Assembly: GCF_900110125.1 (NCBI RefSeq)
Contig: NZ_FOCN01000011.1
Location: 1-64,000 of the forward strand
Direction: 5' to 3'
DNA: 64,000 nt
DNA from: Cryobacterium luteum
GTDB taxonomy: Bacteria > Actinomycetota > Actinomycetes > Actinomycetales > Microbacteriaceae
Positions within the stretch are counted from its first letter, which is position 1, and each line of letters begins with the position of its first letter. The notes under the pieces were generated by a model. The model ran no database searches and was not told where the DNA came from. It worked only from the letters and a program-made list of their open reading frames with translations. Shown here piece by piece: positions 25,917-26,869 of this stretch. The position numbers were made by a program, and so were the translations under genes.

Positions 25917-25979
25917 TCAGAGCAGCGCGCGACTCTCGGCGCTGGCCGTCGGCTCAAACCAGGTGCCAACATGATCGCC
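25917..25979 (-). pseudogene. Duplicated 3' end of proB, distal copy
   Basis: Twenty codons and a TGA stop encode [20 protein letters not shown], nearly the same as the C-terminus of the upstream proB gene. It is not attached to any reading frame start and is the most diverged of the three copies. Confidence 0.85.
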
Positions 25980-25989
25980 GCTGCAGTAA

Positions 25990-26052
25990 TTAGAGCAGTG
26001 CGCGCCGGTCTTCGCTGGCCGTCGGCTCAAACCAGGTGCCAACATGATCGCC
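25990..26052 (-). pseudogene. Duplicated 3' end of proB, proximal copy
   Basis: Twenty codons and a TAA stop encode [20 protein letters not shown], differing from the intact proB C-terminus by only two residues (His for Asn, Asp for Glu). No start belongs to it. Confidence 0.88.
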
Positions 26053-26062
26053 GCTGCAGTAA

Positions 26063-26869
26063 TTAGAGCAGTGCGCGCCGCTCTTCGCTGGCCGTCGGCT
26101 CAAACCAGGTGCCTACATTATCGCCGCGAAGAGCGGCAGCGGCCAGTTCGGTTGAGGTGACCAGAACGGCGGTGCCGGCCTTGGTGGCGAGGCGAGCAGC
26201 GACGACCTTGGTGCTCGCTCCCCCGGTTCCGACGCCGGTTGCTCCGCTGGAGCTGAATTCGAAGCCATCGAGCGGGTCGTCGGCGGCAATGAAATCGAGT
26301 TTCTCCGCCCCCGGCAGGTGCGGCGGCTTGGTGTAGAGCGCGTCGACGTCGCTGAGCATGATCAGCAGGTCAGCGTGGATGAGGGTCGCGACGAGCGCCG
26401 CGAGGCGGTCGTTGCTGCCGAACCGCAAACCGTAGACGGCCACGGTGTCGTTCTCGTTGACGACGGGCAAAATACGCAGGTCGAGCAGGCGTTCCAGCGC
26501 ACGACGGGTGTTGCTGCGGTGCGGTTCTTTGAGGGCGTCGCCCTCGGTGAGCAGCACGGTGCCGGCCGCGATGCCGTAGCGGTCGAGGCTTTCCTGGTAG
26601 CGAAAGATCAGCACGTTCTGCCCGACGGCGGCCGCCGCCTGCTGGGTGGCAACGTCGCTGGGTCGCTCCTCCAGGTTGAGGAAGGGCATACCGGTGGCGA
26701 CGGCGCCCGACGAAATCAGCACGACCTCGGTGCCGCGACCGTAGGCCTCGGCCAGGGCGTCAACGAGGGGGGTGATCTGGTCGGAATTCTCGCCGCTGAT
26801 CGAGGAGGACCCGACCTTCACAACGACACGTTTCGCGCCCGCTACGTTGTCTCTGGCTAAGCCACTCAC
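26063..26869 (-). CDS. proB: Glutamate 5-kinase, first paralogue
   Basis: The 268-residue kinase phosphorylates glutamate in the first step of proline synthesis. Motifs: [88 protein letters not shown] and [17 protein letters not shown]. It lacks the PUA domain. Its GTG start overlaps the obg stop in GTGA, giving the conserved obg-proB coupling, and a second proB of equal length follows. Its last 21 codons are amplified downstream. Which of the two supplies most activity cannot be told. Confidence 0.93.

Follow-up and report, generated by a model that had tools for sequence, protein, structure and literature searches.

A tandem pair of glutamate 5-kinase genes in Cryobacterium, with a putative change of proline control in one copy and a short array at the junction

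The window analysed here is a stretch of 64,000 nucleotides from Cryobacterium luteum (contig NZ_FOCN01000011.1, positions 1 to 64,000). Of particular interest is a region of its minus strand in which obg is followed by a glutamate 5-kinase gene (proB1, encoding B1), three units of the 3' end of that same gene, a second glutamate 5-kinase gene (proB2, encoding B2) and proA (Table 1). The initial annotation, made from the letters alone, had described two 268-codon proB genes between obg and proA, and their coordinates bear this out. The start of proB1 is a GTG, at the same place as the start of the orthologous frame in the related locus L034. Both proteins score above the cut-off of 186 bits for the NCBIfam profile TIGR01027, B1 with 248 bits over profile positions 1-257 of 363 and B2 with 272.2 bits over positions 2-255, and the limits of these matches indicate that the C-terminal part of the profile, the PUA domain, is missing from both; such a domain is found at the C-terminus of ProB in some bacteria but not in all. 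The two proteins are 70% identical across 253 residues, with a dN of 0.217 and a dS of 0.913 between their genes.

Table 1. Features of the obg-proA region, in window coordinates
Feature	Position	Strand	Description	Basis
obg	26866..28563	-	upstream neighbour of proB1	
proB1 (B1)	26063..26869	-	glutamate 5-kinase, 268 aa, without PUA domain	TIGR01027 match
Array unit 1	26063..26135	-	coding 3' end of proB1 (65-bp core 26063-26127)	unit alignment
Array unit 2	25990..26062	-	non-coding hybrid	unit alignment
Array unit 3	25917..25989	-	non-coding; at its 3' end and beyond similar to the native end of proB1 in relatives such as G026	alignment
-10-like hexamer	25888..25893	-	TAAACT; TAARCT in 18/18 relatives (window included)	alignment
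Possible leader ORF	25771..25836	-	21 codons, GTG start; stop overlaps proB2 start (ATGA)	alignment
proB2 (B2)	24968..25774	-	canonical glutamate 5-kinase, 268 aa; loop Glu and Asp retained	TIGR01027 match
proA	23653..24945	-	downstream neighbour of proB2	

The pair, which encodes the enzyme of the first step in proline synthesis, is widespread in this cold-loving genus. A proB gene was found in 56 of 57 Cryobacterium genomes, 40 of which carry two copies and 16 one; the single genome without it is 87% complete. The order obg-proB1-proB2-proA holds in all 40 two-copy genomes, and obg upstream and proA downstream are retained at all 56 loci. Counted from the stop of proB1 to where the proB2 match begins, the two genes are separated by 2-91 bp in 17 genomes and by 114-288 bp in 21, and in the remaining two the gap reaches 5,682 and 6,988 bp. 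These last two (G015, L034 2655-9253; G012, L035 3566-8755) do not form a sister pair in the tree. The block of 5.7-7.0 kb between their proB1 and proB2 encodes, on the opposite strand, two NAD-dependent epimerases together with one glycosyltransferase and one beta-helix-like protein; a UDP-glucose dehydrogenase is present in the block of G015 and absent from that of G012. These inserts raised the idea that the repeats of the window might be attachment sites for a mobile element. The nine insert proteins selected for this check were sugar-nucleotide enzymes, glycosyltransferases and beta-helix-like proteins; no integrase was seen among them, and the idea was set aside.

Outside the genus the search covered a family sample of 398 genomes, 10 of them Cryobacterium, and 363 of the other 388 gave a proB match. 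Three of the 388 showed two matched places: in one the two are identical and lie near both ends of a single contig, in another a gene is accompanied by a 115-residue fragment, and in the third a single gene is broken into two pieces. A second complete proB was not found in any of these 388 sampled genomes of other genera, with at most six candidates scored per genome, so that a divergent copy could escape. A search of a plasmid collection returned 31 records, with identities of 60-80% throughout. The genes for the other two steps are not doubled in the same way: proC gave one match in each of the 57 Cryobacterium genomes (E <= 1e-20), and proA one match in 55, two pieces in one and none in one. 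Where proA is matched in two adjacent pieces (G008:C1:705999-707181), a frameshift or a sequencing error is suggested. The duplication is thus confined to the regulated step of proline synthesis. A literature search found nothing that combines Cryobacterium with glutamate 5-kinase, and no title or opening of an abstract among its results describes the pair.

In a tree of 120 rows all 40 B1 sequences fall in one clade on a single branch (SH-aLRT 99), and in a reduced tree 39 of 39 B1 again stand together. The 96 Cryobacterium rows group together against the 24 outgroup rows with an SH-aLRT of 85, or 71 in the reduced tree. Separate acquisition of the two copies, the outcome that the initial annotation had named as fatal to a duplication, was not seen, since B1 groups with the canonical Cryobacterium copies, albeit at these rather low values. 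A topology with B2 and the single copies as one clade is not rejected (p-AU 0.263), which means that the duplication may precede the Cryobacterium radiation or fall within it. Five changes are needed to place the two-copy and one-copy states on the tree of B2 and single copies, and one single-copy genome (G009) is nested in a two-copy group. The data fit a single duplication, either within the genus or at its base, with later losses; proB would then have been duplicated in tandem inside an obg-proB-proA cluster at an early stage of Cryobacterium evolution. Purifying selection acts strongly on both copies in the clade of the window, where median dN/dS is 0.029 for B1 and 0.048 for B2 (136 pairs of 17 close genomes). 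The branches leading to the two proB copies of one genome (G017, L057) are long (0.34 and 0.37), yet the reading frames are free of stops.

The array between the two genes has a quite different distribution and structure. Three copies of the proB1 3' end lie at exact 73-bp spacing, as had been reported, and Tandem Repeats Finder ranks them at the top of its 40 rows for the window (2.9 copies, 93% matches, score 362). The second-best tandem array by score is a 36-bp unit present 3.7 times at 1318-1449; a perfect 15-bp repeat of 3.6 copies at 26946-26999, in the C-terminal tail of obg, encodes a TDTAP peptide repeat. The core common to all three 73-bp units is 65 bp (21 codons plus stop), and units 2 and 3 carry an additional 8-bp linker; the first 8 bp of unit 1 deviate because the linker occupies that stretch in the other two. 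Of the 73 positions, 62 are shared by units 1 and 2 (all 62 within the 65-bp core), 66 by units 2 and 3 and 57 by units 1 and 3. These differences are not scattered: over positions 1-50 unit 2 matches unit 3 exactly, over 23-54 and 56-73 it matches unit 1 exactly, and at position 55 it has a single change of its own. The stop codon is TGA in unit 3, which keeps the native end, and TAA in units 1 and 2. The initial annotation took the two newest units to be nearly identical and the third to be diverged, but the pattern is better read as two older outer units and a middle one that is a recombinant of both. Such an inner recombinant is what unequal crossing-over produces, and the pattern would follow if the units of an ancestral two-unit array had crossed over somewhere in positions 23-50. 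The array has in all likelihood arisen in this way: the last 65 bp of proB1 would have been duplicated together with an 8-bp linker, in the window genome only among those compared, and unequal crossing-over between the two copies would have given the third, hybrid unit.

The 73-bp array is found in one of the 40 two-copy genomes, that of the window, and was not found in the other 39. Short duplications of other kinds occur in four relatives (G050, G019, G049 and G012, with units of 14, 16, 13 and 17 bp respectively, the last given by the scan as a 34-bp double unit), and these sit on the proB1 stop or begin no more than 2 bases after it. The scan for tandem duplications was positive at five of 40 proB1 ends and at six of 56 ends of the last proB (none of these on the stop codon), as compared with three of 46 approximate window genes, proB1 not among them, and seven of 300 shuffled 150-mers. 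The excess at proB1 ends (5/40 vs 3/46) is only slight, and we claim no significance for it. The distribution of the pair as compared with that of the array, the tree and the hybrid unit together uphold the suggestion that a gene duplication was followed by a separate and much later expansion of the junction, and we regard both the anatomy of the locus and the two separate histories of gene pair and array as nearly certain.

Downstream of the array, the alignment suggests that in the clade of the window proB2 and proA have a promoter of their own and a translated, coupled leader. The putative leader frame is open in 16 of the 18 genomes of the wider clade, with lengths of 16, 21 or 25 codons that differ by whole codons; the exceptions are the sisters G019 and G036, where a 16-codon frame begins at an ATG located one base upstream. 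A GGAGG-like site precedes the leader frame in most of the 18. Scans for a sigma-70 consensus promoter and for terminators over 24600-27200 found none. An open frame of 334 aa (24968-25972, minus strand) begins within array unit 3 and continues in frame to the end of proB2, which could lead automatic annotation to assign proB2 an overlong product; the proB2 start at 25774 aligns with that of the relatives (ATG in 16 of 18, GTG in two).

Could the array itself be regulatory, for instance as a length-variable switch for proB2? Its position is suggestive, between proB1 and the proB2 leader and ending 23 bases upstream of the -10-like hexamer, as is the presence of duplications at or just past the proB1 stop in four relatives. 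The units of these relatives are, however, unlike those of the window in sequence and in length, the scan gave no duplication in 35 of the 40 two-copy genomes, and relatives that have no array conserve the putative promoter and leader. Rfam, moreover, assigned no RNA family at gathering score within 23000-29000 (two matches, both far below their gathering scores, are taken as chance), and the terminator scan was likewise empty, all of which makes a regulatory array very improbable. Still less credence attaches to an assembly artefact, whether of the array or of the second proB: the window genome (G000) is a draft of 73 contigs and the array is seen in it alone, but the pair is present in 40 genomes, some of them of one or two contigs, and the three units differ from one another at defined positions. 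The array is very probably neutral. It leaves the C-terminus of ProB1 unchanged and would act as a neutral spacer, with no effect on that C-terminus or on the conserved proB2 leader. In itself it is of little importance and resembles ordinary recombination debris.

The more consequential differences lie within the kinases. According to PMC5418603, in the part available to us, allosteric regulation of E. coli ProB is lost with D107N or E143A, and the proline-binding motif includes D148 and N149. In our sequence alignments, with E. coli numbering, every one of the 40 B1 has Gly at the E143 position, where the 56 canonical Cryobacterium copies and the 24 outgroup rows all have Glu. The D148 position is Ser in 25 of the 40 B1 and Asp in the other 15, and Asp in all 80 other rows; D107 is conserved as Asp throughout the Cryobacterium and outgroup rows, the 40 B1 included. 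A set of 75 actinobacterial loci shares four members with the outgroup rows; in this set D148 is Asp in all 75, and the E143 position holds Glu in 68 loci and Lys in the remaining seven, which are ProB of Arthrobacter/Pseudarthrobacter (L080, L085, L088, L096, L097, L110 and L111). The positions that we take to be catalytic or substrate-binding (K10, G12, S50, G51, A52, N134, D137, N149, D150 and K217) are invariant in the 40 B1, the 56 canonical copies and the 24 outgroup rows. The earlier statement that both kinases keep all motifs therefore holds for the catalytic and substrate positions examined but fails in the loop, where E143 and D148 are Gly and Ser in the B1 of the window; the accompanying suggestion that the two might differ in proline feedback has in these altered residues gained a concrete reason in the sequence.

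The best overall explanation, one that we consider probable though far from secure, is that of two stacked events, a duplication leaving B2 as an ordinary kinase and B1 as an isoenzyme with altered, probably weakened proline control, and a later neutral array. B1 would have kept its catalytic residues while the loop that holds proline-feedback and glutamate-binding residues changed (E143 to Gly in 40, D148 to Ser in 25), B2 remaining the ordinary proline-inhibited enzyme; with ProA and ProC serving both kinases, proline could then accumulate, for example as a protectant against osmotic stress or cold, a step which we infer. Judged from the loop residues, altered proline control of B1 is likely. 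B1 is a candidate for a proline-desensitised isoenzyme because ProB and ProJ of Bacillus are reported to differ at the same loop site, but Gly alone need not desensitise, since the wild-type ProB of Corynebacterium glutamicum, which is described as inhibited, carries Gly at the E143 position. For that reason desensitisation is held as the better guess only; the retention of D107 in 40 of 40 B1 and of D148 in 15 of 40 also counts against it, and a B1 that is less proline-sensitive seems to us quite possible, a little short of probable. The same facts speak for the contrary reading, in which B1 and B2 are redundant dosage copies under equal proline control and the loop changes of B1 are drift: Gly at the site is compatible with inhibition in C. 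glutamicum, D107 is kept, and 16 proB-bearing genomes live without B1, which is thus not indispensable. Drift, however, would hardly have fixed Gly in all 40 B1 against Glu in all 80 canonical and outgroup rows, nor does it predict that protein change should be slower in B1 than in B2, as it is among the 17 close genomes (median dN 0.019 vs 0.039), and redundancy of this kind appears unlikely.

A bolder proposal, possible but rather doubtful, supposes that Cryobacterium, independently of Bacillus, evolved a dedicated feedback-free glutamate kinase by tandem duplication within the obg-proB-proA cluster, with E143G in the loop and then D148S, B1 acting either alone as a stress enzyme or mixed with B2 to set proline sensitivity. 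Such a mixed assembly is conceivable because the glutamate 5-kinases studied are tetramers (PMC6099280). Ectoine synthase was matched in one of the 57 genomes (G025), by a search that gave no match in any of its 14 control genomes, and this result, together with the single proC, leaves room for proline as a compatible solute in these bacteria. In the available part of a paper on ice-core Cryobacterium, proline is mentioned once, with regard to its use in proteins, and the term glutamate 5-kinase is absent (PMC7381226).

The pair amounts to a clean natural experiment, in which a feedback-controlled step has been split in two, the feedback position has been changed and fixed in one copy, and one-copy relatives are at hand for comparison. 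Should B1 prove insensitive to proline, an actinobacterial genus would have reached the ProB/ProJ arrangement of Bacillus a second time and independently; such a result would also bear on why Gly at this position accompanies inhibition in C. glutamicum.

Among known systems, short tandem duplications grown by unequal crossing-over resemble the array in their direct units, hybrid middle unit and restriction to one lineage; the Cryobacterium unit is distinguished by holding the stop codon and last 21 codons of a gene, and by being present in three copies only. For the kinases, the accessible text on Leishmania donovani describes a glutamate 5-kinase that, like those of Cryobacterium, consists of the kinase domain without a PUA domain and is still regulated by proline, but this is a eukaryotic enzyme and a tandem paralogue is not described there (PMC6099280). 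C. glutamicum ProB shares with B1 a Gly (G149) at the E143 position, but it is inhibited by proline and keeps the equivalent of D148 (D154) (PMC5418603). This wild-type enzyme is the feedback-inhibited form that was mutated for more proline, and among 16 residues ranked at the E143 position Gly gave the lowest proline titre and Lys the highest (PMC5418603).

The closest likeness is to Bacillus, where, in the published descriptions available to us, two glutamate kinases feed one proline pathway and the paralogues differ at the feedback Glu of a mobile loop, the feedback-sensitive ProB having E142 and the osmoadaptive ProJ R142 (PMC13198045). Feedback resistance of ProJ is predicted (PMC13198045, PMC9245794), and in B. 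subtilis ProA is common to both kinases (PMC9245794). We infer from these descriptions that Bacillus E142 corresponds to E. coli E143. B1, like ProJ, is a second glutamate kinase beside a canonical one. The Cryobacterium pair differs in being adjacent (obg-proB-proB-proA), in the replacement of the feedback Glu by Gly rather than Arg in all 40 B1, in its single proC, with no second P5C reductase of the ProH type among the 57 genomes at E <= 1e-20, and in the lack of a PUA domain from either copy. No T-box or osmotic promoter was found at the locus, as covered by the Rfam (23000-29000) and sigma-70 (24600-27200) scans. By its sequence features, then, the pair is a genus-specific variant of the ProB/ProJ-like isoenzymes, and one that merits an enzyme assay.
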